Made by a program: the position numbers and the translations under genes. A stretch of 64,000 nucleotides of DNA from Olleya sp. Hel_I_94 (GTDB lineage: Bacteria > Bacteroidota > Bacteroidia > Flavobacteriales > Flavobacteriaceae): positions 1,307,001 through 1,371,000 of the forward strand of contig NZ_VISI01000002.1 in assembly GCF_007827365.1 (NCBI RefSeq), given 5' to 3'. Under the pieces are notes generated by a model. That model had not been told where the DNA came from. It ran no database searches and saw only the letters and a list, made by a program, of their open reading frames with translations. Below, piece after piece: positions 10,621 to 61,755 of the stretch. Positions within the stretch are counted from its first letter, which is position 1, and each line of letters begins with the position of its first letter.

Positions 10621-11805
10621 TTGAAACGCGCTAAACTAATACTACCCATAATTGTCATCGCTCAATTTTGCTGTACCTCACTTTGGTTTGCAGGTAATGG
10701 TGTGATTAATGACATGGTCCTAAATTTTAATTTAAAGCTTAATGCTTTAGGGCATTTAACATCTGCTGTACAATTTGGATTTATTATTGGAACACTAGTA
10801 TTTGCTATTTTAACAATTGCAGATCGCTTTTCGCCATCCAAAGTGTTTTTTATAAGCGCCTTGTTTGGAGCAACCTTTAACTTAGCTATTATCTGGAATG
10901 GACATACTTTAACAAGCTTATTACTGCTTCGGTTTTTAACAGGTTTTTGTTTAGCTGGTATCTATCCTATTGGTATGAAAATAGCAACGGACTACTTTAA
11001 TACAGGTTTGGGTAAATCGCTTGGTTTCTTGGTTGGCGCTTTAGTGCTTGGTACTGCTTTTCCGCATTTATTAAAAGATTTTACAAGTAGCTATCCATGG
11101 AAGTCTGTATTAATTACAACATCCACACTTGCTGTAATTGGAGGTTTATTAATTTTATTTTTAGTACCAAATGGTCCTTATCGTAAACCTAGTTTACACA
11201 CTACTTTTAAAGCGTGTTTTACAATCTTTAAAAAACACAACTTTAGACATGCTGCTTTTGGTTATTTTGGTCACATGTGGGAATTATATGCGTTTTGGGT
11301 TTTTACACCAATAATGCTTAAACAATATAGTATTAACCATAGTATTGCAGATTTAAATATTCCGTTATTATCTTTTTTAATTATTGGATTAGGAGGTGTT
11401 GCCTGTATTATAAGTGGCTATGCTGCACAACGTATTGGGACTAAAAAGACTGCTTTTATAGCATTGCTATTATCTTGTATTTGTTGTTTACTATCGCCTT
11501 TACTATTTACAGTAACCTCAACAAATATATTTGTTGGTTTTTTAATGTTTTGGGGAATGGTGGTCGTTGCTGACTCACCATTATTATCGACTTTAATTGC
11601 TGAAAGTGCAACACCACAACTTAAAGGCACCTCACTTACTATTGTAAATTGTATTGGTTTTACAATCTCTATAATAAGTATACAATTATTAACTGCTTTA
11701 ATTGAAACGACTACTTCCAACGGAATTTATGTGATTTTAGCTTTAGGTCCAATTTTGGGTTTACTTGCTTTAAGTGGTAAAAAGAAACCTACTATTAGCC
11801 AATAA
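10621..11805 (+). CDS. MFS transporter
   Basis: 394 residues with about twelve membrane helices, typical of the major facilitator superfamily. A TTG is chosen as start because it opens with a first helix (MKRAKLILPIIVIAQFCCTS) that matches the usual N-terminus and no ATG is near. The loop between helices 2 and 3 (DRFSPSKVFF) and the acidic/glycine pattern in helix 4 (RFLTGFCLAGIYPIGMKIA) fit the family. The substrate cannot be inferred. It stands alone between DUF6090 and a convergent FKBP gene. Confidence 0.88.
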   Translation: MKRAKLILPIIVIAQFCCTSLWFAGNGVINDMVLNFNLKLNALGHLTSAVQFGFIIGTLVFAILTIADRFSPSKVFFISALFGATFNLAIIWNGHTLTSLLLLRFLTGFCLAGIYPIGMKIATDYFNTGLGKSLGFLVGALVLGTAFPHLLKDFTSSYPWKSVLITTSTLAVIGGLLILFLVPNGPYRKPSLHTTFKACFTIFKKHNFRHAAFGYFGHMWELYAFWVFTPIMLKQYSINHSIADLNIPLLSFLIIGLGGVACIISGYAAQRIGTKKTAFIALLLSCICCLLSPLLFTVTSTNIFVGFLMFWGMVVVADSPLLSTLIAESATPQLKGTSLTIVNCIGFTISIISIQLLTALIETTTSNGIYVILALGPILGLLALSGKKKPTISQ

Positions 11806-11808
11806 ACA

Positions 11809-11862
11809 AAAAATCCCAATACTAATTGCTGTATTACTACACACAATCCGTATTGGGATACT
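11809..11862 (-). terminator. Probable terminator of the FKBP gene
   Basis: TCCCAATAC (11814-11822) pairs with GTATTGGGA (11850-11858) across a 27-base loop. On the minus strand the stem is followed by TTTTTTG, so it should end the FKBP transcript. The plus-strand tail (TACTTTTAAA) is weaker, though it may also slow transcription from the MFS gene. Confidence 0.55.
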
Positions 11863-11899
11863 TTTAAAATAAGCGACTTATTTTATTTGGTAACTTGTA

Positions 11900-12328
11900 T
11901 TATTTGATGTCTACCACTTCTAAATCAAAAACAAGATCTTTACCAGCTAATGGATGGTTTGCATCCAAAACGATAGTTTCTTCTTTAACTTCTACTACCA
12001 TTAAGTTAGTCTCGCGACCATCTTGTGTTTTAGAAACTAATCCCATACCTACTTCTGGCGTCATATCCTGAGGTAAATCTGCTTTACTTACTTCTTGAAT
12101 TAAAGCTGGATTAACATCACCATAAGCTTCTTCTTTAGCAATTGTGATGGTCTTTTTTTCGTTTAATTTCATATCAATAACTCCTTTTTCAAAACCAGGA
12201 ATTAATTGTCCTTGACCTAAAGTAAACTCTAAAGGCTCTCTTCCTTCAGACGTATCAAAAATTTGTCCATCAGATAATTTACCTGTGTAATTTACTTTAA
12301 CTGTGTTGTTTTCTTTTACTTGATTCAT
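11900..12328 (-). CDS. FKBP-type peptidyl-prolyl isomerase, SlyD-like
   Basis: 142 residues. The FKBP core is recognised from VNYTGKLSDGQIFDTSEGRE (about 9-28) and FTLGQGQLIPGFEKGVIDMK, and the insert-in-flap segment lies in the middle (about 70-125). It ends KDLVFDLEVVDIK, which closes the FKBP sheet as in SlyD. The His-rich metal-binding tail of E. coli SlyD is absent. It should act as a cytoplasmic proline isomerase and chaperone. A 14-base palindrome lies 18 bases before the start codon. Confidence 0.9.
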   Translation of the reverse strand: MNQVKENNTVKVNYTGKLSDGQIFDTSEGREPLEFTLGQGQLIPGFEKGVIDMKLNEKKTITIAKEEAYGDVNPALIQEVSKADLPQDMTPEVGMGLVSKTQDGRETNLMVVEVKEETIVLDANHPLAGKDLVFDLEVVDIK

Positions 12329-48214: not shown

Positions 48215-50632
48215 TTAATCATTATCTATAATTGAAATCGTAGCTTCTCCTATCGCACTTGCAGATCCACTTATTAATGTTCCTACAACAGTAAAATTTT
48301 CAGTCCCTTCAGCTTCTGTATCATCTGTAATTACAATTGCAAATACACCATTTGTGCTACCTGCTTCAATGGTAATATTAATATTGTTATTACCATAAAT
48401 ACCTTCAATTTGATAATCTTCAAAATCTACTTCACTAGAAACAATTTCAAAATTAATAACAATATCATCGATAGCTGGACTAGATAAAGTAAAAGCATAT
48501 TCCAAAATATCTCCTTCTGTTACCGTTTGATCATTTACAATTATACTTGGACTAGTTGGCACACTAGTGTCATCACTTGGATCTGTACCATTAGCAGCTT
48601 CAATACAATCATCAAAACCATCTCCATCACTATCTGCCACATTAGGATCTGTTATATTACCGTTTGGATTACAGATAGAAAGGTCACTATCAATACCTGA
48701 TAACTCTTCGCAATCTGTTAATCCATCACCATCTGTGTCTAAATATTCCTGATACAAGTATACTTCTGCAATATCAAATTGATTTGTTATGGTATTAACC
48801 GCTTTTACATAAATAATTTGCGTATTCCCATCATCTATAAATGGACTAGCTAATGGATTAACATCAGCTAATGCATCAGCTTCAGTTAAGTAAAAAATAT
48901 AGTTATTATTAATTAATTCAAAATAAACCTCTGAAACAATACTATCAAAATCATAAATTAATGATGGGATACAACCTATTCCTGAAACCTCTGTTGCGTA
49001 AATTAAGACATCCAAATTATCTAAATAATCTGGTATTGAGTCACCATCACTATCGTCATTCATTGGATCTCCATCACTATCATAATCCTCATCAATAGTA
49101 TCAACACCATCATCATCATCATCAGTATCCAAATAGTCAGGTACACCATCTTGATCTGTATCGTCATCAGTATAATCGCCATTAGCATTTAAGTCTTCAT
49201 TAAAATCTAACACACCATCTGCATCAGCATCCAAAAGTGTTGTACAAGACATTTGCGTGCCTAAATCTGTGATAGGAACTGTAAAATTACCTGTTACAAA
49301 AGTTGTAGATTGATTGTTTGTTATATCAAAAAACTGCATGGTATACTCGGTATCTGTCAAACAATAATCTATAGATAAATCCAAGATTCCGTCGGTTATT
49401 GGAATAATAGATACAGAATTATTATAATTTAAAAAGACATAACCATTTGTAGCTGGAGTACCAGAACAATCGTTAAAAACACCAGTTACATTAGTCGTTT
49501 GTGCATTACTATCTGATACTGTTATGGTCAAATTAGTGTCTATATCAAACGGTCCAACAATCTCAGTATAATCATTATCAATACAACCAAAATCCGGAAT
49601 GGTTACTGTTAATGTTTCGTTAGCAGGAATAATACCACAAACTTCACCATTTGCATTAGTGTACCCTGCAGTTGCAGATGTCCATGATACCGATTCGCGT
49701 TGCAATTGTACAATGGTATTAGGCAAAGGATTGTTATTATCATCCACTACAGTAATACACAGTTGAACGGTATCAAAAGCAATGTCACAGTTCCAAAAAC
49801 TAAAATGAGATACCTCTCCAACGTATTTATTACCCTGTAAAACTGCTGTACCTTCTTCCTTCCAATATCCATATGTTTCGTCAAAATACCATAATGGTAT
49901 TGTTTCCGGAGGATTAGTAGCATTAGTTGGCACAGGAACAGATAATTCTGCAGTGGTACCTTCTGCGATATTTAAAACCTCACCATTTTCTCCAATTAAC
50001 TTAACAGCTATCATACCATAAGTTTCTAAAGCTTGTAAATTACCACTCGTATTTTCTGCTATTAAAGCTCCTGGCATTTGCAAAGCCATAGCCTCATTAT
50101 CCGGATTTAAATGTCTTAAAACAACCTGAACATTTCCTAAATACTCAAAACCATTTTCAGTTTCAAAATCACCTGAAAAATTAACAGAAGTTCCGTTTGG
50201 CAAGCCAATATTAAAAGGTTGCCCTGCTCCAATTGTAGCATTTGGATCGGCATCCAACAACATAATTTCTACTTGGTTAACACCACTTGTAGGCACCAAA
50301 GATCTAGAACCATCAATAAAACCAACTTTAGACGCTTTTATATAGGCGAATTTTTCATAAACCGTTGCAGACTCCACTGAAAACACTCCGTTTGCATCTG
50401 TTACGGTCATCATGTTACCTACGTTAATACTAGCTCCAATAATTGGGTCACCTTCTTCATTTATAACCCTTCCTATAAATCTTGCATCCATAGATGCTCC
50501 AAAATTTTCTAAAAAAGGATTGCCAGCTTGACCATCTACTTGTTGTTGGTTTAACGGAATATTATTGTCTTTTTCGCAAGAAAAAATTAATAAAACAACA
50601 AATAATGATACTATAAACTTTAGTTTTTTCAT
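48215..50632 (-). CDS. Large surface lipoprotein with Ca-binding repeats
   Basis: 805 residues. A lipoprotein signal ends FSC (Cys19). A carboxypeptidase-like domain (about 52-112) with GRVINEEGDPIIGASINVGN comes first, then a long beta-rich region, then two Asp-rich thrombospondin-type-3 repeat clusters (about 465-545 and 635-700, e.g. DTDQDGVPDYLDTD and DSDGDGFDDCIEA). A Calx-beta-like domain closes the chain (about 705-805). TSP3 and Calx-beta units bind calcium. The protein should be exposed at the cell surface; an adhesion or structural role is inference. Confidence 0.82.
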   Translation of the reverse strand: MKKLKFIVSLFVVLLIFSCEKDNNIPLNQQQVDGQAGNPFLENFGASMDARFIGRVINEEGDPIIGASINVGNMMTVTDANGVFSVESATVYEKFAYIKASKVGFIDGSRSLVPTSGVNQVEIMLLDADPNATIGAGQPFNIGLPNGTSVNFSGDFETENGFEYLGNVQVVLRHLNPDNEAMALQMPGALIAENTSGNLQALETYGMIAVKLIGENGEVLNIAEGTTAELSVPVPTNATNPPETIPLWYFDETYGYWKEEGTAVLQGNKYVGEVSHFSFWNCDIAFDTVQLCITVVDDNNNPLPNTIVQLQRESVSWTSATAGYTNANGEVCGIIPANETLTVTIPDFGCIDNDYTEIVGPFDIDTNLTITVSDSNAQTTNVTGVFNDCSGTPATNGYVFLNYNNSVSIIPITDGILDLSIDYCLTDTEYTMQFFDITNNQSTTFVTGNFTVPITDLGTQMSCTTLLDADADGVLDFNEDLNANGDYTDDDTDQDGVPDYLDTDDDDDGVDTIDEDYDSDGDPMNDDSDGDSIPDYLDNLDVLIYATEVSGIGCIPSLIYDFDSIVSEVYFELINNNYIFYLTEADALADVNPLASPFIDDGNTQIIYVKAVNTITNQFDIAEVYLYQEYLDTDGDGLTDCEELSGIDSDLSICNPNGNITDPNVADSDGDGFDDCIEAANGTDPSDDTSVPTSPSIIVNDQTVTEGDILEYAFTLSSPAIDDIVINFEIVSSEVDFEDYQIEGIYGNNNINITIEAGSTNGVFAIVITDDTEAEGTENFTVVGTLISGSASAIGEATISIIDND

Positions 50633-52307: not shown

Positions 52308-52699
52308 GGGGTCGACTGGTTTTGACAGCGAGATTAATTAAATTGTAAGCACGTCGAGTAATGATTTTGTACTCGTTAAACACTTGATCAACTTTTTAAT
52401 CGGCGAGAATAACTACGCTTTAGCTGCCTAATCCGAATTATAGTAGGATTAAGCCTCGGTACACAAGGTGTACGAGCTTTATGTCTCCGGAAAGCTTTGA
52501 TTGACAGCGTTCCATTTGAGGCATCGAAAATGTCAATATAGACTTAGTAGCGCTTTGATGCTTTGTTGAAACTAAAAAAGATAAGTTAAAAGTGGGTTGT
52601 CTTTAACCAGCTTTTAATCGAAAACCTAAGAAAAGAATAAACGTGTAGAAAGCCTTTTGGTTACTTGTTTGGACGAGAGTTCGATTCTCTCCGACTCCA
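52308..52699 (+). ncRNA. ssrA: Transfer-messenger RNA (tmRNA)
   Basis: The gene is about 392 bases. The 5' end GGGGTCGACTGGTTTTGACA and the 3' end GAGAGTTCGATTCTCTCCGA give the tRNA-like half: GGGGTCG pairs with CGACTCC (one G-U), and the T arm holds GTTCGATTC. The discriminator A is at 52699; CCA is not encoded. The tag frame GGC GAG AAT AAC TAC GCT TTA GCT GCC TAA (52402-52431) encodes GENNYALAA, the tag of this phylum. With SmpB it frees stalled ribosomes and marks the unfinished protein. A terminator follows within 10 bases. Confidence 0.97.
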
Positions 52700-52703
52700 C
52701 TTT

Positions 52704-52740
52704 AAACGCTCTGAAGCATTGATTTCAGAGCGTTTTTTTT
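52704..52740. terminator. Intrinsic terminator of ssrA
   Basis: CGCTCTGAA (52707-52715) and TTCAGAGCG (52724-52732) form a 9-bp stem with an 8-base T-run after it. The T-run reaches the stop codon of the convergent LacI gene. Confidence 0.88.
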
Positions 52741-53761
52741 ATGACCTAAAGGAAGAGTCCCTAATTACTATATTACTTTTAATTTCAACTAACTTACTAA
52801 TAATATTATCTTCAGGCACATTAATTTCATTTATAAGATATTGTACTGCTGTACGTCCTATTTTTTCTCCAGGTTGATCTACTGTGGTTAATTTGGGTTC
52901 TATTATAATAGAGTTAACAGAATTACTAAATCCAACAACTGCTATTTCTTCAGGTATTTTTACATTAAACTTATTTAGTGTTTGTATTACGCCTATTGCT
53001 GCACCATCTGTAATCGCGAAAATAGCATCAGGTCGTACTTTTGAACTCAATAATATATTGGTCATTCTTTTTCCCTCTTTCATTGATATATCCTCGACAC
53101 TAATAACCATTTTGGGATCTAGCTCAAGGTTATTATCCTTCAAAGCTTTTAAATAACCCGAATACCTTTTTTCCGAATTATAGGAATATTCACCTTCCTT
53201 AATTATAGCTATTCGCTTTTTTCCAATATTAATTAAATGTTCAACTATATTATAGGCTGCTTCCTCATCATTAATTGTAATTTGGGTGCATGGAATTTTA
53301 TTTGAAACCTTATCAAATAAAACAATTGGAATTGTATTTAACGTTGCTAATATGTGATCAACTTCTCTAGTACGCTTGGTTAGTGAAGCTAATATACCAT
53401 CCACACCAAATTGTATCATGGTATTAAACATCTCTTTTTGCTTTTCTACATCATTGTTAGATTCTGATATAATTACCCTAAATCCTTTACTTTCTGCCTC
53501 TTCCATAATACCTCTAACAATAGTCGTAGTAAAGTAATGTGTTATATTGGGTACGATAACACCAATAATATTAGATCTATGATTTCTAAAACCTTTGGCA
53601 AAAATGTTTGGTACGTAATTTAATTTTAATGCTAATGCCTTTACCTTCTCTTTAGTTTGCACGCTAATGTCTGGATGATCATTTAATGCTCTAGAAACTG
53701 TTGATATTGATAATTCTAAAGTCTGAGCTAATTTTTTTAAAGTGGTAACTTCTTTCTTCAT
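52739..53761 (-). CDS. LacI-family transcriptional regulator of the mannosylglycerate locus
   Basis: 340 residues. The N-terminal helix-turn-helix and hinge are TLKKLAQTLELSISTVSRAL and NDHPDISVQTKEKVKALALK (residues 6-45), followed by LNYVPN. The periplasmic-binding-like sugar domain spans about 60-335 (NIIGVIVPNITHYFTTTIVR, AVVGFSNSV). It is divergent from the TonB-receptor gene, with a tandem CAAACGTTT-type operator 14 bases before its own start. It probably represses the locus and itself; the inducer is not known. Confidence 0.9.
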   Translation of the reverse strand: MKKEVTTLKKLAQTLELSISTVSRALNDHPDISVQTKEKVKALALKLNYVPNIFAKGFRNHRSNIIGVIVPNITHYFTTTIVRGIMEEAESKGFRVIISESNNDVEKQKEMFNTMIQFGVDGILASLTKRTREVDHILATLNTIPIVLFDKVSNKIPCTQITINDEEAAYNIVEHLINIGKKRIAIIKEGEYSYNSEKRYSGYLKALKDNNLELDPKMVISVEDISMKEGKRMTNILLSSKVRPDAIFAITDGAAIGVIQTLNKFNVKIPEEIAVVGFSNSVNSIIIEPKLTTVDQPGEKIGRTAVQYLINEINVPEDNIISKLVEIKSNIVIRDSSFRS

Positions 53762-53774
53762 AAAAATAAAATTT

Positions 53775-53797
53775 CAAACGTTTTCGCAAACGTTTGC
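53775..53797. promoter_or_regulatory. Tandem LacI-type operator
   Basis: GCAAACGTTTGC (53786-53797) is a perfect 12-bp palindrome of the LacI-family class with a central CpG. A second, imperfect copy CAAACGTTTTCG (53775-53786) overlaps it end to end, a 12-base step. Both lie in the divergent intergenic space. Confidence 0.8.
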
Positions 53798-53878
53798 ATA
53801 CAAATATCGTACTTTTTAGTACACAACAATGCTTAATTCGTAATTATATTAGCCTAAAATTAACTAATTCTTAATAAA

Positions 53879-56545
53879 ATGAAAAAACTAACCACCACAC
53901 TATTATTATTATTTTGTTGTTTTTCAATGTTTGCACAAACAGAAATATCCGGAACTGTAAAAGACAAAGCTGGATTACCAATTCCAAACGCTAACATTTT
54001 AATTATTAACTCAAACGTTGGAGCTTCTACAGATTTTGACGGAAATTTTAGTTTTACGGTACCTGAACTTACAGGGTCTAAGGAGTTACAAGTATCTTAC
54101 ATTGGCTATACTACTTTGATTAAAAAAGTAGATTTAAACGGTACGCCATTAACACTTGATATTATCTTACAAGAAGGTAATAATTTAGATGAAATTGTTC
54201 TTACAGCCTCTTCTACTTTTAGATCACAAAAACAAGCGCCTTTATCCATTAGTAGTAAAGGCATTAAAGAAATTACTAGACTATCGGCTAACAGTCAAGC
54301 AGATATTTTAAGAGATGTACCTGGTATTACTGCTGAAGGTGGTGGTGGAGAAACTGCAACCAACCTATTTGTTAGAGGTTTACCTTCTGGTGGACAATAT
54401 GTCTTTAACCCTTTACAATACGATGGTATGCCACTTATGAGCACGTTTGGATTAAACTCATCTGCACATGATGTTTACGCTAGACCTGATGTTGGTTTTA
54501 AAGGTGTCGAATTTGTTAGAGGTGGATCTGCTGTACTTTATGGTGCTGGATCAGTTGCTGGTATAATTAACTATACAAGTAAAACTGGAGATTCTAATGA
54601 CGAAAATTTAATTAATGTAGAATGGGGAAATGACGGTAGATTAAAAACTGACTTTTATACTGGTGGACAATTAGGTAGCGAAGATTCTAACACTTATTAC
54701 GCTTTTACAGGTTTTGTTAGAAAAGATGATGGTCCAATTGAAACTGGTTTAACCACAAAAGGAGTGCAGTTTAGAGGTAATATCAAACAAAAATTTGAAA
54801 ACGGATCCTTTACAGTACATGGACAATATATTAATGATAGAGCTCAATTTTACTTACCATTACCATTAGATGGAGCGTCAAGAGAACGTTTAAATGGTAA
54901 CGATGGTGAAGAAGTAAGCCAACTATTGTCTGGTGAACTAGCAAACACTTCATTTTTAACTCCAGGAGGTGTATATGAAAGTCCTATTGAAGATGGTGTC
55001 TACACAAAAGGTGGTTACCTTTTAGCAGATTTTAACTATAACCTAAATGACAATCTAAAATTTAAATCAAAAGTAAAATATGCCAACTACCAACATAATT
55101 TTGCATTATATGTAGGTGGTAGTGGTGATTATGGTAATCCAATTACTATTAATGATTATGTAGCTGCTATTGCACCAGATAATACCGCATTTAGCGCAAC
55201 ATATCAAGGTGGTGCTGGTAACCAAATTAACGGTAACGATTTAGTGGTAGAAAATCTACACGTAGATAGGTTAAGACCAATGACAGATTATTCTGGAGAG
55301 GCTAGCTTTATATTAAATTCTGATGATGGAATACACACCTATACTGCCGGAACATTCTTAGCCAGAACAGAAGCTGAAGATGTTAACTATCAATATAGAG
55401 TCCTTTCAGAATTTAATAATAATCCGCAATTAGTTAACTTAAGCTACACTGACGCTGGAGGAAATAATGTAATTTATTCTGAAGGTGGTTTATACAACAG
55501 GATTGGTATGACAGCCAATAATTACCTAACGCAAAGTAGAACTGCTTTTTATCTTACAGATGAAATGGTTTTTGACAGATGGCGTTTTGATGTTGGATTC
55601 CGTATAGAGTCTACAACTGGTACCTTTAGAAAAGGAGGATTAGAAACCACTCAAGTGTATGAAGACGCTGACTTAACAACTAATTTACAAAATGTTCAAT
55701 TTGCTGATGGTACTTTTACAACTGGCGAAATTAAAGATACAGATTGGGCATTATCATTAGCAGGTTTATACAAACTAACTGATGCCACAAATTTATATGC
55801 TAACCTCTCAAAAGGATACTTTTTTCCGCAACAACGTGGTTTTGGACCAACTCCAGGAATAAGAGATACCAATTATGAGGCTGAAACGATTTTACAAGGT
55901 GAAATGGGAGCCAAATTTGGAACAGATAAATTTTCTGGTTCTGTGGCTGCATACTATGTTGGGTTAAGCGACCGTATACGTATAGATCAAGCAATTTCTG
56001 GAGGTCAATTAGTCGATCAAGCTAGAAGTGAGCAATCAACGCAAACATTAGGTCTTGAAGCAACTGGAAGATATAAATTTACAGAGCATTTAAATGTTTC
56101 TGGGACGCTAACATACCAAGATCATGAAATTACAACTAATCAAACTGAAGATTTAGTCAATGGTACAACAAGTACTATTAATGAAGGTAATGAAATTGCA
56201 AGACAACCAAACCTTTTAGGAAACTTAGGTCTTAACTACGATAACAAAGTTTTTGATGCAAGCTTTGCTGTTAACCACACAGGAAAAAAGTTTACTGACG
56301 ACACTAATAACGTAGAGTTAGATGCTATTACAATTGCAAGATTAGGTGCTGGTTATACAATACAAACTAACGAAGATACGTCCTTACGTTTTGGATTATC
56401 TGTATTTAACTTATTTGATAGTTCTGGTATTACAGAAGGAAACCCAAGAGCTGGTATTGCTGGTCAATCTGGAGATGGCGAGTTTTTTGTTGGACGACCA
56501 ATCTTACCTAGACGTATGTTCTTAACAGCAACATTCAATTTTTAA
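53879..56545 (+). CDS. TonB-dependent receptor of the mannosylglycerate locus
   Basis: 888 residues. Signal peptide MKKLTTTLLLLFCCFSMFAQ; carboxypeptidase-like domain at about 22-105 (ISGTVKDKAGLPIPNANILI); plug domain at about 115-235 (LSANSQADILRDVPGI, FVRGLPSGGQY, FVRGGSAVLYGAGSVAGIIN); barrel to the end, with a final aromatic residue (TATFNF). It takes up a ligand over the outer membrane with TonB energy. No SusD gene accompanies it, which points to a small ligand rather than a long glycan. A terminator-like hairpin follows. Confidence 0.92.
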   Translation: MKKLTTTLLLLFCCFSMFAQTEISGTVKDKAGLPIPNANILIINSNVGASTDFDGNFSFTVPELTGSKELQVSYIGYTTLIKKVDLNGTPLTLDIILQEGNNLDEIVLTASSTFRSQKQAPLSISSKGIKEITRLSANSQADILRDVPGITAEGGGGETATNLFVRGLPSGGQYVFNPLQYDGMPLMSTFGLNSSAHDVYARPDVGFKGVEFVRGGSAVLYGAGSVAGIINYTSKTGDSNDENLINVEWGNDGRLKTDFYTGGQLGSEDSNTYYAFTGFVRKDDGPIETGLTTKGVQFRGNIKQKFENGSFTVHGQYINDRAQFYLPLPLDGASRERLNGNDGEEVSQLLSGELANTSFLTPGGVYESPIEDGVYTKGGYLLADFNYNLNDNLKFKSKVKYANYQHNFALYVGGSGDYGNPITINDYVAAIAPDNTAFSATYQGGAGNQINGNDLVVENLHVDRLRPMTDYSGEASFILNSDDGIHTYTAGTFLARTEAEDVNYQYRVLSEFNNNPQLVNLSYTDAGGNNVIYSEGGLYNRIGMTANNYLTQSRTAFYLTDEMVFDRWRFDVGFRIESTTGTFRKGGLETTQVYEDADLTTNLQNVQFADGTFTTGEIKDTDWALSLAGLYKLTDATNLYANLSKGYFFPQQRGFGPTPGIRDTNYEAETILQGEMGAKFGTDKFSGSVAAYYVGLSDRIRIDQAISGGQLVDQARSEQSTQTLGLEATGRYKFTEHLNVSGTLTYQDHEITTNQTEDLVNGTTSTINEGNEIARQPNLLGNLGLNYDNKVFDASFAVNHTGKKFTDDTNNVELDAITIARLGAGYTIQTNEDTSLRFGLSVFNLFDSSGITEGNPRAGIAGQSGDGEFFVGRPILPRRMFLTATFNF

Positions 56546-56570
56546 TTTATAATAATTTAATTAGTCATAT

Positions 56571-56616
56571 AACTCATCATTTTTTATGCTAAGTAAAGTG
56601 ATGGGTTATTTTTTTA
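56571..56616 (+). terminator. Hairpin with T-run between receptor and hydrolase genes
   Basis: AACTCATCA (56571-56579) pairs with TGATGGGTT (56599-56607) with one T-G pair, followed by ATTTTTTT. It lies 26 bases after the receptor stop and 26 before the hydrolase start, and may reduce transcription into the enzyme genes. Confidence 0.6.
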
Positions 56617-56641
56617 AAATCAAAAAAACTTACAATCTTTA

Positions 56642-57958
56642 ATGTGTATGAAGGATTTACAAAACAACGCTATTACAGTATTAAACAATAACTGGAAAGA
56701 TAAATTTAGCATTCCATGCGCAAAGCTTTACCCTTTTCAATGGTTCTGGGATTCAGGATTAATCGCAATTGGTTTTGCTCATTTTGACATGCCTAAAGCC
56801 GAAAAAGAAATAGAAACACTGCTTGATGCACAATGGAGTAATGGTTTTATTCCTCATATTATTTTTCATACCGAAACTGACACCTATTTTCCTGGACCTG
56901 ATTTTCATCGTTCAGATTTACATCCAGAATCTTCCAAAAAATATAAATCTACAGGTATGACACAACCTCCTGTTACTGGTTTTGTTTTAGAAGATTTATA
57001 CCGTATTAGCAAGGATAGAGACGCTACTTTAAAATTTATAGAGTCCGTAATTGATAAAGTGTATAAAAATCACGAATATTTTTACAACCAACGTGATCCT
57101 CAAGATGAAGGTTTAGTTTACATATACCATAACTGGGAATCAGGTACAGACAACTCTCCTATTTGGGATGATATTTGGGACACTATGAATCCTCCTGAAT
57201 ATACTTTTGAAAGACGTGACACAACACATGTTGATGCTGCACAAAGACCTTCTAAAAGAGAATACGATCATTATTTACACATTATTGAAATTGCCAAACA
57301 AAACAATTACAATGATCAAAAAATAGCAGAGCTTTCTCCCTTTTTAGTTCAAGATCCATTATTTAACGCAGTACTTTTAAAATCTAATCAAAGTCTAATA
57401 GATTTATATCGTATTATAGGAAATAAAAATAATAACGATAAAATACACCAACTTCAAAAATGGCAAGACAAAGGGACTAAATCATTTAATAATAAACTCT
57501 ATGATGAAGAACTAGGTGTTTATGTACATTACGATTTAAGAAACGAAAAATTATTAAAACACATATCTTCCTCTTCTTTTGCACCACTTTTTGCTAATCT
57601 ACCAAGTGAGACTAGAGCAGAAAAAATGGTAGATATAATGATGGAAAAATTTGGTAACCCAGATCAATATCTGTGTGCATCATTTGATCCAACTAGCGAT
57701 AGATTTAATCCTAAAAAATATTGGAGAGGTCCAGTTTGGGTGAATTTAAATTGGATGTTATATTATGGGTTAAAACAATATGGTTTTTACGACATCGCCA
57801 AAAGAATGAAGCAAGATACCATTGAGATTATTGAAAACAATGGGTTTTACGAGTATTTTGATTCTAGAAAAGAAGAACATAAAAATGGTAACGCAGGTTA
57901 TGGAGGTCATAATTTTTCATGGAGTGCTGCATTATTTATAGATTTATTAAATGAATAA
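56642..57958 (+). CDS. Mannosylglycerate/glucosylglycerate hydrolase (GH63-like)
   Basis: 438 residues, an (alpha/alpha)6 barrel with no signal peptide, so cytoplasmic. WFWDSGLIAIGFAHFD (about 34-49), QWSNGFIPHIIF (about 64-75), WESGTDNSP (165-173) with Asp170 as likely general acid, and Glu404 in GFYEYF with GGHNFSWSAA after it (421-430) as likely base. That pattern is the MgH/GgH group of GH63, which cleaves 2-O-glycosylglycerates to free sugar and glycerate. The next genes (glycerate kinase and mannose-6-phosphate isomerase) favour mannosylglycerate. A second ATG two codons in is an equally possible start. Confidence 0.82.
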   Translation: MCMKDLQNNAITVLNNNWKDKFSIPCAKLYPFQWFWDSGLIAIGFAHFDMPKAEKEIETLLDAQWSNGFIPHIIFHTETDTYFPGPDFHRSDLHPESSKKYKSTGMTQPPVTGFVLEDLYRISKDRDATLKFIESVIDKVYKNHEYFYNQRDPQDEGLVYIYHNWESGTDNSPIWDDIWDTMNPPEYTFERRDTTHVDAAQRPSKREYDHYLHIIEIAKQNNYNDQKIAELSPFLVQDPLFNAVLLKSNQSLIDLYRIIGNKNNNDKIHQLQKWQDKGTKSFNNKLYDEELGVYVHYDLRNEKLLKHISSSSFAPLFANLPSETRAEKMVDIMMEKFGNPDQYLCASFDPTSDRFNPKKYWRGPVWVNLNWMLYYGLKQYGFYDIAKRMKQDTIEIIENNGFYEYFDSRKEEHKNGNAGYGGHNFSWSAALFIDLLNE

Positions 57959-57980
57959 ATAACCCACTAGCTTTAACCAC

Positions 57981-59588
57981 ATGAATTATATAGACTACAT
58001 CATCATCATATTATATTTAATCGGATTTTTAGGGATAGGGTATTTCTTTAAAGAAAATAAAAACTCTAAAGATTACTTCCTTGGAGGTCAATCAATGGGA
58101 TGGTTTCCGTTAAGTTTATCAACTATGGCTACCCAATTATCTGCTATTAGCTTTATATCTGCACCAGCATTTGTTGGTTTAAAAGAAGGTGGTGGATTGC
58201 AATGGTTAACCTATGAGTTTGGTGTACCTTTAGCTATGGCGTTTTTACTAATTGCCATAATACCTACCTTATATAATTCTGGTATTGTTAGTGTTTATGA
58301 ATATCTAGAGCGTCGTTTTGATGCCTCTTCAAGGCTACTTATTAGTTTTGTTTTTCAAATTAGTCGCTCTGTAGCAACAGGTGTTATGGTATATACTATG
58401 GCACTTATTTTACAAGCTACCATTGGTATAGAGTTTTGGATTTCGATATTAATTATTGGTGTTATAACTATGGTATACTCCTTTCAAGGTGGAATGAAGG
58501 CTGTAATTTGGGGAGACGTCATACAAATGTGTATTCTCTTTTTTGGTATAATTATTTGCTTATTTTATGGTTTAAGCGAGCTAGGTGGTTATGATAATTT
58601 TATAAATCTTGTTGATAAAGACAGATTAACTGCAGTAGATTTTTCTAAATGGGGATTTAATAATGCCGATAAAAATGACGAATTTGGTTTTTGGCCAATG
58701 GTAATTGGAGGTTTCTTTTTGTATGCTTCCTATTATGGTACAGATCAAACACAATCACAAAGACTACTATCTGCAAAAGGATTACCTACCATAAAAAAAT
58801 TATTACTAGCTAATGGATTGTTTAGATTCCCAATTACATTAACCTATTGTGTAATGGGATTAATTTTAGGAACATTATTACTACAAGACGCTAGTTTTCA
58901 AGAGTTATTAAATACAGTTTACCAATCCAATATTACAAGTTTAGAAGGTAAAAAAGCCGACTTAATGGTACCTGTTTTTATAATTAAATACTTACCAAAT
59001 GGTGTAATCGGTATTTTAATAGTTGCAATAATGTCTGCTGCAATGTCCTCTTTAAGCAGCACAGTAAATTCATTATCTGCAGTAACCTTAGAAGACTTTA
59101 TAAAACGATTTAATCCTGATATGCCAGACAAAAAATACGTACAATACTCACGTTTATTATCTGTATTCTGGGGATTAGTGTGTTTGTTTTTTGCGTTTTT
59201 CGCCGGAAGTATAGAAGGAACTGTTATTGAGGTTATTAACAAAATAAGTTCTATTTTTTATGGTCCCATTTTAGCTGCTTTTATATTAGCTATTCTAACT
59301 AAAAAAACCCACGCTTTAGGTGCTAATATTGGTATCGTTATAGGTGTGTTATTTAATATGTATTTATGGCTATATGTACCAAGTATATTTTGGTTTTGGT
59401 GGAATGCAATAGGTTGTTTAGTAACTGTTATAATAGCCTTAATTGTAAGCTATGTTATTAAAAAAGAAACCAAACCAGGTTTAGATATTGAAGTCTATAA
59501 AGCAGGTAAAAAAGAAGTCATTATACTATTATCATACTTTGTTTTAATTGTGCTGTTTGCAATTTTTATTAGTGAAATTTTAAATTAA
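57981..59588 (+). CDS. SSS-family sodium:solute symporter
   Basis: 535 residues with 13-14 membrane helices. It opens YIDYIIIILYLIGFLGIGYF. SKDYFLGGQSMGWFPLSLS (about 29-47) and ATQLSAISFISAPAFV (about 51-66) form the sodium/substrate region and AMSSLSSTVNSLSAVTLEDF (about 353-372) is the helix-8-type segment. It should import the intact glycoside or one of its products with Na+. It is 22 bases behind the hydrolase gene and 8 before the glycerate kinase gene. Confidence 0.92.
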   Translation: MNYIDYIIIILYLIGFLGIGYFFKENKNSKDYFLGGQSMGWFPLSLSTMATQLSAISFISAPAFVGLKEGGGLQWLTYEFGVPLAMAFLLIAIIPTLYNSGIVSVYEYLERRFDASSRLLISFVFQISRSVATGVMVYTMALILQATIGIEFWISILIIGVITMVYSFQGGMKAVIWGDVIQMCILFFGIIICLFYGLSELGGYDNFINLVDKDRLTAVDFSKWGFNNADKNDEFGFWPMVIGGFFLYASYYGTDQTQSQRLLSAKGLPTIKKLLLANGLFRFPITLTYCVMGLILGTLLLQDASFQELLNTVYQSNITSLEGKKADLMVPVFIIKYLPNGVIGILIVAIMSAAMSSLSSTVNSLSAVTLEDFIKRFNPDMPDKKYVQYSRLLSVFWGLVCLFFAFFAGSIEGTVIEVINKISSIFYGPILAAFILAILTKKTHALGANIGIVIGVLFNMYLWLYVPSIFWFWWNAIGCLVTVIIALIVSYVIKKETKPGLDIEVYKAGKKEVIILLSYFVLIVLFAIFISEILN

Positions 59589-59596
59589 AAGTTAAC

Positions 59597-60730
59597 ATGA
59601 AAATAGTAATTGCTCCAGATAAGTTTAAAAATTCACTAACCAGTTTAGAGTTTTGTAATATCGTTGAAAAACAGCTTAAAAAAGAGTTGCCTTATGCCAA
59701 TATCGTAAAACTACCATTAGCAGATGGTGGTGATGGTACCATTGACATTGTCAAACATTATTTAGATGGAGAAACTATCAAGACTACAGTGTGTAACCCT
59801 TTATTTACAGCAATTGAGGCCAGCTATATTTATGCGCCAAAATATGAAACTGCATTTATAGAAATGGCAGAAGCCTCAGGCTTAAAGCTTTTAAAACCAG
59901 AGCAATTAGACTGTAAAATAACTTCAACATTTGGAACTGGCCAGCTTATTTTGGACGCTTTAAACAAAGGTGCAAAAAAAATAATACTTGGTATTGGTGG
60001 AAGTGCTACAAACGATTGTGGTATTGGCATGGCAACTGCATTAGGATACCGTTTTTTGGATAAAAAAGGTGAAATAGTAAACCCTATTGGCAAAAACCTG
60101 TCATCTATAAAATCCATTGACGTTAGTCAAGCAAATCCACAAATTTTTTCAACAGATTTTAAAATAGCTTGTGACGTTACTAATCCATTATATGGTAAAA
60201 AAGGTGCTGCTTACGTTTATGCTGCCCAAAAAGGAGCTAATCATCAAGATATTTTATTACTTAATAAAGGACTTAAAGATTTTTCAAAATTAATCAGTCA
60301 AATCTTTAAAATAGATCCACAGTCCATACCTGGTTCTGGAGCTGCAGGAGGTATGGGGATTGCTTCTAAAATATTTTTAAACGGAACGCTTGAAAGCGGA
60401 AATAAATTAATTAAACAGTTATCAAATTTTGATAATCAAATTTCAAATGCAGACTGGATTATAACTGGAGAAGGCAAATTGGATAATCAAACGTTATCCG
60501 GAAAAACTATTCAAGGTGTTTTAGATACCTCAACTAAAAATAATATTAATGTAGCAGTCTTTTGTGGTGCGATTGACATTAACGAAAAAGCACTAAAAAA
60601 CATGGGAATTAATTATGCTTCACAAATAATAAACGAAGCAAAAAACTTAGATGATGCCATGCAAAACACTAACATACATCTTAAAACTATGACTAAAAAA
60701 TTTATTGGTCATATCAAACAACTTAAATAA
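59597..60730 (+). CDS. Glycerate kinase (GlxK/GarK type)
   Basis: 377 residues. MKIVIAPDKFKNSLTSLEF, LPLADGGDGTIDIV (about 40-53), IILGIGGSATNDCGIGMATA (about 130-149), PGSGAAGGMGI and WIITGEGKLDNQTLSGK (about 287-303) are the hallmarks of the glycerate kinase type 1 family. This family mostly makes 2-phosphoglycerate, which enters lower glycolysis. In this locus it would consume the glycerate released by the hydrolase. It ends one base before the ATG of the isomerase gene. Confidence 0.95.
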   Translation: MKIVIAPDKFKNSLTSLEFCNIVEKQLKKELPYANIVKLPLADGGDGTIDIVKHYLDGETIKTTVCNPLFTAIEASYIYAPKYETAFIEMAEASGLKLLKPEQLDCKITSTFGTGQLILDALNKGAKKIILGIGGSATNDCGIGMATALGYRFLDKKGEIVNPIGKNLSSIKSIDVSQANPQIFSTDFKIACDVTNPLYGKKGAAYVYAAQKGANHQDILLLNKGLKDFSKLISQIFKIDPQSIPGSGAAGGMGIASKIFLNGTLESGNKLIKQLSNFDNQISNADWIITGEGKLDNQTLSGKTIQGVLDTSTKNNINVAVFCGAIDINEKALKNMGINYASQIINEAKNLDDAMQNTNIHLKTMTKKFIGHIKQLK

Positions 60731-60731
60731 A

Positions 60732-61709
60732 ATGAAATTATATCCCTTAACTTTCAATCCAGTTTTTAGCTACCGTATTTGGGGAGGAAACAAATTAAAA
60801 TCGGTATTAAATAAGAGTTACTCCCAAGACAACATAGGCGAATCTTGGGAGATTTCTGATGTTGAGGATAACCAAACCATTGTAAATAATGGTAATTTAA
60901 AAGGGAATACGCTAAAAGATTTAATTAAGACATTTAAAGGTAATTTTCTGGGACATAAAGTATATCAAACATTTGGCAACAACTTTCCGTTGCTAATAAA
61001 ATTTATTGATGCCAAAACACCTTTATCCATACAAGTACATCCTAGTAATCAGTTAGCTAAAAAAAGACATAATTCATTTGGTAAAAATGAAATGTGGTAC
61101 GTAATGCAAGCTGAAAATGAAGCCGAATTAATTGTAGGTTTTAATCAAAAAATTAGTAAAGAAGACTACGTAAACCACCTTAAAAACAACACCTTAAAAG
61201 ATATTTTAAATATTGAAACAGTAACATCTGGAGACACCTTTTATATTCCTACTGGACGTGTACATGCTATTGGAGCAGGTGTTTTACTTGCCGAAATCCA
61301 ACAAACCTCAAATATTACTTATCGTATTTATGATTATGATAGGATTGACAAAAAAACAGGACAAAAAAGAGAGCTACACACCAATCTAGCTTTAGACGCT
61401 ATAGACTACGATTTTTACAAAAAATATAAAACGGATTACAATCAGGTATTAAACACACCAAGTCAATTGGTAAATTCCGAGTATTTTAAAACTAATATAA
61501 TCGAATTAAACACCAAGTTAACAAGGGATGTTACAGCAATAGATTCGTTTATAATTTATATATGTGTTCTGGGAGAGGTTATAATTAACACGCCTGACGA
61601 CGCTACTAATTATAGCTTAAAAATGGGCCAAACTATTATTATTCCTGCCTGTATTAATCTAATAACAATTCATGCAAATTATGCTAAACTAATTGAAGTC
61701 TATTTGTAA
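60732..61709 (+). CDS. manA: Mannose-6-phosphate isomerase, class I
   Basis: 325 residues from the ATG at 60732; the frame is open a little further up, but this Met gives the usual beginning MKLYPLTFNPVFSYRIWGGN. The zinc ligands are in SIQVHPSNQ (about 97-105), KNEMWY (about 114-119) and GRVHAIG (about 174-180). It interconverts mannose-6-phosphate and fructose-6-phosphate. It closes the locus and would process mannose released by the hydrolase once phosphorylated. No mannose kinase is present here. Confidence 0.94.
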   Translation: MKLYPLTFNPVFSYRIWGGNKLKSVLNKSYSQDNIGESWEISDVEDNQTIVNNGNLKGNTLKDLIKTFKGNFLGHKVYQTFGNNFPLLIKFIDAKTPLSIQVHPSNQLAKKRHNSFGKNEMWYVMQAENEAELIVGFNQKISKEDYVNHLKNNTLKDILNIETVTSGDTFYIPTGRVHAIGAGVLLAEIQQTSNITYRIYDYDRIDKKTGQKRELHTNLALDAIDYDFYKKYKTDYNQVLNTPSQLVNSEYFKTNIIELNTKLTRDVTAIDSFIIYICVLGEVIINTPDDATNYSLKMGQTIIIPACINLITIHANYAKLIEVYL

Positions 61710-61716
61710 CATCTAG

Positions 61717-61755
61717 CAAAAAAAATCCCAATCTGAAAAGATTGGGATTTTTAGT
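61717..61755. terminator. Terminator at the end of the mannosylglycerate locus
   Basis: AAAAATCCCAATCT (61721-61734) and AGATTGGGATTTTT (61739-61752) form a 14-bp perfect stem on a GAAA loop. It serves manA and, by its A-run, the convergent rhodanese gene. Confidence 0.9.

Follow-up and report, generated by a model that had tools for sequence, protein, structure and literature searches.

A predicted regulated locus for import and hydrolysis of an alpha-glycosyl-glycerate, probably mannosylglycerate (digeneaside), in the flavobacterium Olleya sp. Hel_I_94

Escherichia coli uses mannosylglycerate as food through mngAB, which encode a phosphotransferase system (PTS) transporter and a GH38 enzyme acting on the phosphorylated sugar. 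Genes for digeneaside degradation in Zobellia galactanivorans were reportedly described by Barbeyron et al. in 2016, in Environ Microbiol 18:4610. Digeneaside is mannosylglycerate by another name (PMC8490865; this and the other papers given by such numbers are cited from excerpts), homologues in Maribacter have been identified from the Z. galactanivorans genes (PMC8072126), and digeneaside has been named among further possible substrates of flavobacterial polysaccharide utilisation loci (PMC6298971). Here we analysed a 64,000-nucleotide stretch of the Olleya sp. Hel_I_94 genome (contig NZ_VISI01000002.1, positions 1,307,001 to 1,371,000; hereafter the window) that carries a six-gene locus, for which the same substrate is proposed in the same kind of bacterium as Z. 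galactanivorans. An initial annotation of this DNA knew of no flavobacterial locus for the compound; according to the excerpts above, flavobacterial digeneaside use has already been published as a concept, for a related bacterium. Among the matches listed for the mannosylglycerate, GH63 and Zobellia literature, as far as the excerpts extend, no title concerned experiments on a flavobacterial locus of this type. The results below give good support to a regulated locus that imports and hydrolyses an alpha-glycosyl-glycerate; new here are its distribution, the swapping of transporter types, a conserved tandem operator, an optional manA and the question of the kinase step.

The locus comprises six genes in two divergent arms in the open reading frame (ORF) listing of the window. 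A LacI-family regulator gene (52739..53761, minus strand; Pfam LacI 1.4e-10 and Peripla_BP) is separated by 117 bp from a divergent TonB-dependent receptor gene (53879..56545, plus strand; Pfam Plug, TonB barrel 9.7e-26 and CarbopepD_reg_2). On the plus strand, the receptor gene is followed after 96 bp by the gene for a GH63 MGH1-like hydrolase of the mannosyl/glucosylglycerate type (56642..57958; Pfam MGH1-like_GH, PF22422, 4.9e-87), after a further 22 bp by that for an SSS-family sodium:solute symporter (57981..59588; Pfam SSF 2.6e-49; TIGR00813 251.9 bits, cut-off 184), after 8 bp by that for a GarK/GlxK-type glycerate kinase (59597..60730; Gly_kinase 2.5e-133; TIGR00045 413 bits, cut-off 168; PDB 3cwc 3.1e-74) and after 1 bp by that for a class I mannose-6-phosphate isomerase, ManA (60732..61709; PMI_typeI_cat 7.1e-13; TIGR00218 140.7 bits, cut-off 116; PDB 1qwr 4.2e-43). 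The listed isomerase start at 60705 (TTG) is mechanical, and the more probable start is the ATG at position 60732, one base past the glycerate kinase stop. The receptor scored 81.5 bits with the curated SusC model (cut-off 368), by which it is not of the SusC type, and no SusD-like gene was seen by eye, with no SusD model, among the window ORFs; the SusC/SusD pair of a SusCD polysaccharide utilisation locus is thus lacking. The nearest solved relatives of the symporter were iodide, multivitamin and monocarboxylate transporters, whose substrates are anions; glucose transporters ranked behind. Unlike the E. coli mng system, the window locus has an SSS symporter and a GH63 enzyme, and its six genes include no PTS permease, GH38 enzyme or hexose kinase. 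The gene complement, the receptor without SusD, the absent hexose kinase and the hydrolase motifs WESGTDNSP, GFYEYF and FSWSAA were all as the initial annotation had described.

The hydrolase is assigned to the GH63 mannosylglycerate/glucosylglycerate hydrolase group by its MGH1-like catalytic domain (PF22422, 293 bits, cut-off 27, residues 30-428). Its closest solved relative was MgH of Thermus thermophilus (PDB 2z07/4wva, with further entries to 4wvc; 9.6e-93, 315 bits), and entries for mycobacterial glucosylglycerate hydrolase ranked second (212-219 bits, 1.1e-63 and weaker); identities were 39.5% to the Thermus enzyme, which shares the family, catalytic pair and contacts, and 31.6% to the mycobacterial enzyme of Mycolicibacterium hassiacum (PDB 5ohc and others), which shares the family, catalytic pair and most contacts. 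The window enzyme differs from Thermus MgH in being encoded alongside receptor, symporter and regulator genes. We mapped the 22 positions named in PMC6608630, in the numbering of the M. hassiacum (Mh) enzyme. Seventeen residues from Y36 to E419, together with S435 and W436, were identical in the window, Thermus and mycobacterial enzymes; they include the glycerate-binding Y36, W40, Y88, R216 and Y375 (window Y30, W34, Y82, R202 and Y360). In the window enzyme, D170 is by homology the catalytic acid and E404 the base. The three differing positions, Met432, Gln433 and Gln434, lie in one loop, and the excerpts of PMC6608630 name a sugar contact for Gln434 only. This contact is replaced by Phe425 in the window enzyme, as by Phe408 in Thermus, and Phe occupied the position in 56/56 flavobacterial copies of the tree set and in 156/156 of a partly overlapping larger set. 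Variation elsewhere was slight: the His78 position was Gln in two and the Phe89 position Tyr in seven of the 56 copies, and Trp42 and Arg216 each differed in one of the 156. The characterised Thermus and mycobacterial enzymes stood on very long branches of the GH63 tree, and their placement was not used. By these comparisons, the hydrolase is nearer to Thermus MgH than to the mycobacterial enzyme, which favours glucosylglycerate almost tenfold (PMC6608630); Thermus-like residues in a family that takes both substrates point to a glycosylglycerate, leaning towards mannosylglycerate without settling the choice. Since no obvious signal peptide was seen by eye at its N-terminus (MCMKDLQNN), the enzyme is probably cytoplasmic.

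This gene set is found again in relatives. A scan of named genomes yielded 36 loci, all Bacteroidetes by title (hydrolase 61-98% identical), and lacI, receptor, hydrolase, symporter and glycerate kinase genes were all matched in 29 of them. Of the other seven, two are cut short (L009 and L037), one starts within the receptor gene (L031), two have no receptor gene (L016 and L022) and two have neither it nor lacI (L034 and L035); a lacI relative was present in 33/36. The glycerate kinase gene followed the symporter gene in all 34 named loci reaching that far, with one gene between them in L031. Because this set recurs, the genes are not a chance juxtaposition. Linked manA was present in only 7/36. 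In four other Zobellia species (L023-L026), the order lacI, receptor, hydrolase, symporter, glycerate kinase is that of the window, with no linked manA, and the genes may correspond one by one to the published Z. galactanivorans genes. Among 299 sampled genomes of the family, 43 (about one in seven) carried the hydrolase. Twenty more divergent loci were taken from these 43 (hydrolase 53-68% identical; several stretches end near the locus): a symporter gene adjoined the hydrolase gene in 20/20 (in pieces in L073), and glycerate kinase was found in 16, lacI in two, a matching receptor in one and manA in one (L074). Carriers include Zobellia, Maribacter and Algibacter, which are seaweed-associated genera. 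The receptor occurs in three types and the symporter in two; these combine freely, with at least seven and at least five changes, respectively, on the hydrolase tree.

The control region between the two arms is conserved as well. Two abutting 12-bp LacI-type sites, TCAAACGTTTTC and GCAAACGTTTGC, form a tandem operator (53774..53797, assigned to no strand). Control regions were readable in the window and 33 other loci, L031, L034 and L035 having no lacI. Each of the 34 had a site differing from GCAAACGTTTGC at no more than two positions (24 exact, eight with one and two with two mismatches), and in all 34 the next-best site within 30 nt (1-4 mismatches) abutted it at exactly 12 nt. Among 6800 shuffled regions, the best-site event occurred in 0.4% and the 12-nt second-site event in 3.5%; the natural regions are related and hence not independent. 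Since this locus holds the sole exact copy of the operator 12-mer in the 3.56 Mb genome, the regulator probably acts locally. A possible -7 element of the receptor operon promoter, TATATTAG (53845..53852, plus strand), was read by eye from the control regions against the Bacteroidetes promoter consensus.

The isomerase gene is less constant. Linked manA was present in the named loci L003, L004, L005, L007, L020, L029 and L030 and, directly after the glycerate kinase gene, in 9/57 loci overall. On the GH63 tree, linked manA underwent at least seven state changes among 48 loci, nine of them with manA; this count left out L009, L064 and L071, which end too soon, L056, L057, L058 and L072, which have no adjacent glycerate kinase gene, and L073, which could have been kept as lacking manA. 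The two genes have therefore become paired, or lost their pairing, several times at one position. The genome encodes three ManA copies, of which the window copy is an extra one, sharing 62% identity with a copy that neighbours a different LacI gene and 51% with the third copy. When 31 ManA sequences were placed in a tree, 8/8 linked copies fell in one clade of 14 (96/95) with the LacI-adjacent copy, apart from the group of the third copy; long-branch warnings apply to this tree, one of them to the linked copy of L020. At least one ManA was encoded in 15/15 named genomes searched. The recurrence of manA at one place still favours mannose. A second LacI-manA pair lies elsewhere in the same genome (L053, 15213-17203), with no obvious sugar genes adjoining it by eye.

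Together, these results indicate a real, conserved, ordinary catabolic locus, and the earlier reading of one locus for glycosylglycerate uptake and hydrolysis was right in outline, with mannosylglycerate as the probable substrate. We assign a probability of about 0.72 to an inducible scavenging system for mannosylglycerate. In the scheme that follows, the protein families, catalytic residues, gene order and operator conservation are those described above, and we infer the substrate, the directions of transport, the inducer and the kinase. The TonB-dependent receptor would carry the anionic glycoside across the outer membrane, and the SSS symporter would take it up intact into the cytoplasm with sodium, where the GH63 hydrolase would split it into mannose and D-glycerate. 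Glycerate kinase would direct glycerate into glycolysis; mannose would be phosphorylated by a kinase encoded elsewhere, for which the best candidate is a PfkB fructokinase of a mannitol-type polyol operon, and ManA would convert mannose-6-phosphate to fructose-6-phosphate. LacI would repress both arms via the tandem operator until the substrate or a product binds. Such a system would link an osmolyte of red algae (or cyanobacteria) with a small gene cassette, and small glycosides, beside polysaccharides, would be a traceable currency between algae and Flavobacteria.

Several observations weigh against mannosylglycerate scavenging. manA was unseen in 48/57 loci, some of which end before its place. 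In the nearest relative, O. marilimosa (L002, 14040-14270), whose hydrolase is 98% identical, manA retains its first bases and its tail and has lost its body. The Thermus and Selaginella GH63 enzymes cleave mannosyl- and glucosylglycerate about equally (PMC6608630). Because of these three points, mannosylglycerate is the likelier but not a proven substrate; by the first two, the isomerase, which the initial annotation had treated as a defining part, is instead helpful but dispensable evidence for mannose. The sole other genome of the genus in the 299-genome sample (G171) lacks the hydrolase. Three small-genome carriers (L056-L058; 1.6-1.8 Mb, 83-90% complete) have only the hydrolase and symporter genes in the stretch read, with no receptor, regulator, glycerate kinase or manA beside them (some contigs end close by), and do not point to seaweed. 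As for the hexose, ROK, Glk and AGE epimerase were not found in the Olleya genome by searches positive in 12, 4 and 2 of 14 control genomes, respectively. Among the 43 carriers, ROK was found in 19 (an upper figure, since several matches span half of the profile), fructokinase in 32, either in 38 and neither in five. Among the 15 named carriers, the two with neither were O. marilimosa (G299) and Lacinutrix sp. MedPE-SW (G301). Two others of these 15 (G304 and G312) are apparently the same as G163 and G034 of the sample, with identical coordinates.

Some of these points suit glucosylglycerate better. This osmolyte of marine picocyanobacteria could be the main natural substrate, or both glycerates could be used, with the linked ManA as an accessory; we regard this as possible but doubtful. 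Family members that cleave both glycerates (PMC6608630), linkage of ManA in just 9/57 loci and the hydrolase-symporter core of the small genomes all fit it. The compound is a putative osmolyte in a cyanobacterial consortium (PMC5507952), and there is literature that mentions it together with Prochlorococcus. The best-scoring NCBIfam model of the window hydrolase is also named glucosylglycerate hydrolase (NF047898), but its cut-off of 550 bits was missed by far (322.8 bits). The hydrolase is, moreover, nearer to Thermus MgH and without the mycobacterial Gln434, and glucose would not need the third ManA of the genome, encoded one base past the glycerate kinase gene. The preference of the initial annotation for mannosylglycerate thus stands as the best single guess.

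The mycobacterial GH63 relative has a recycling role for glucosylglycerate (PMC6608630), and the Olleya enzyme might similarly recycle a self-made osmolyte; this is highly improbable, because the operator lies between the genes for an outer-membrane receptor and a LacI regulator, and the hydrolase gene is followed by that for a symporter. There is also no synthase among the six genes, although the whole genome was not searched for mannosyl- or glucosyl-phosphoglycerate synthase. The domain is related to trehalase and the GH63 glucosidases, with Pfam Trehalase matching at 2.1e-16, so that a different small alpha-linked glucoside or mannoside might be considered, for example glucosylglycerol or a sugar resembling trehalose. 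We judge this slightly more improbable still: all five glycerate-binding residues are kept, the excerpts of PMC6608630 report the M. hassiacum hydrolase as inactive on glucosylglycerol and glucosylglycolate, and glycerate kinase is linked in 34/34 readable named and 16/20 distant loci.

If mannosylglycerate is the substrate, the hexose kinase is the missing step. The initial annotation had called the locus complete and placed this kinase elsewhere, but it could not be assigned elsewhere in the genome either, and among the inspected neighbours (unclustered flanking ORFs were scanned in part) no kinase but glycerate kinase lay beside the locus. A Hexokinase_1 search was positive in no control genome. 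Four PfkB-family matches were present: one fructokinase, one KDG-kinase-like, one ThiD-like and one without assignment. The fructokinase (nearest solved relative Fructokinase 2qhp) adjoins an ABC transporter and a Pfam Mannitol_dh-family dehydrogenase, which reaches no NCBIfam cut-off, so that the label 'mannitol' is not certain; it is the best candidate for the mannose kinase. Fructokinase accompanied the hydrolase weakly (32/43 carriers, 7/20 non-carriers, p 0.005; the genomes are related and 20 of 256 non-carriers were used), and ROK did not track it (19/43 and 6/20, p 0.41). Since many carriers, this genome included, should free a hexose and yet no ROK, Glk or AGE was found (Glk and AGE in this genome only), we considered a mannose route without a mannose kinase, in which the PfkB fructokinase would moonlight on mannose or ManA would isomerise free mannose to fructose ahead of fructokinase. 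We consider such a route unlikely; G301, a metagenome-assembled genome, has linked manA without ROK and fructokinase, and G299 lacks all three. A kinase of an unrecognised kind is at least as likely. We also tried the operator regulon as a route to the kinase and set it aside: the exact site occurs once, seven one-mismatch sites all lie inside ORFs, and operator-like places genome-wide were fewer than those of the reversed control pattern (8 and 16).

The surroundings of the locus vary by lineage: truB-bacA/ftsX-leuS, a biotin-carboxylase operon, Zobellia genes, or transfer-messenger RNA (tmRNA) in Olleya. The unit therefore moves as a cassette or was often rearranged. In the window, 38 bp separate the lacI stop from the tmRNA gene (52308-52700; tag GENNYALAA). 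Of 15 loci scanned, L002, L003 and L005 share this adjacency and the remaining 12 do not. Islands commonly insert at ssrA. A terminator-like hairpin (61721..61752, plus strand; 14-pair stem and T run) may close the operon; since the region has four matches of its class and shuffles predict 4.1, it is weak evidence on its own. Other genes accompany the locus in relatives. A gene of one homology cluster lies between the hydrolase and symporter genes in 9/36 named loci, its L012 copy (11318-11923) encoding a GNAT acetyltransferase. In a divergent clade (L059, L061, L062, L064, L065, L067, L069, L070 and L071), a gene of about 270-290 aa (longer in L069) stands divergent to the hydrolase gene, and the two copies scanned, from L062 and L069, have GKRP-type SIS domains. 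Unrelated to the locus, an 805-aa lipoprotein-like protein (48215-50632) shows aspartate-rich repeats by eye and matched no Pfam family over cut-off.

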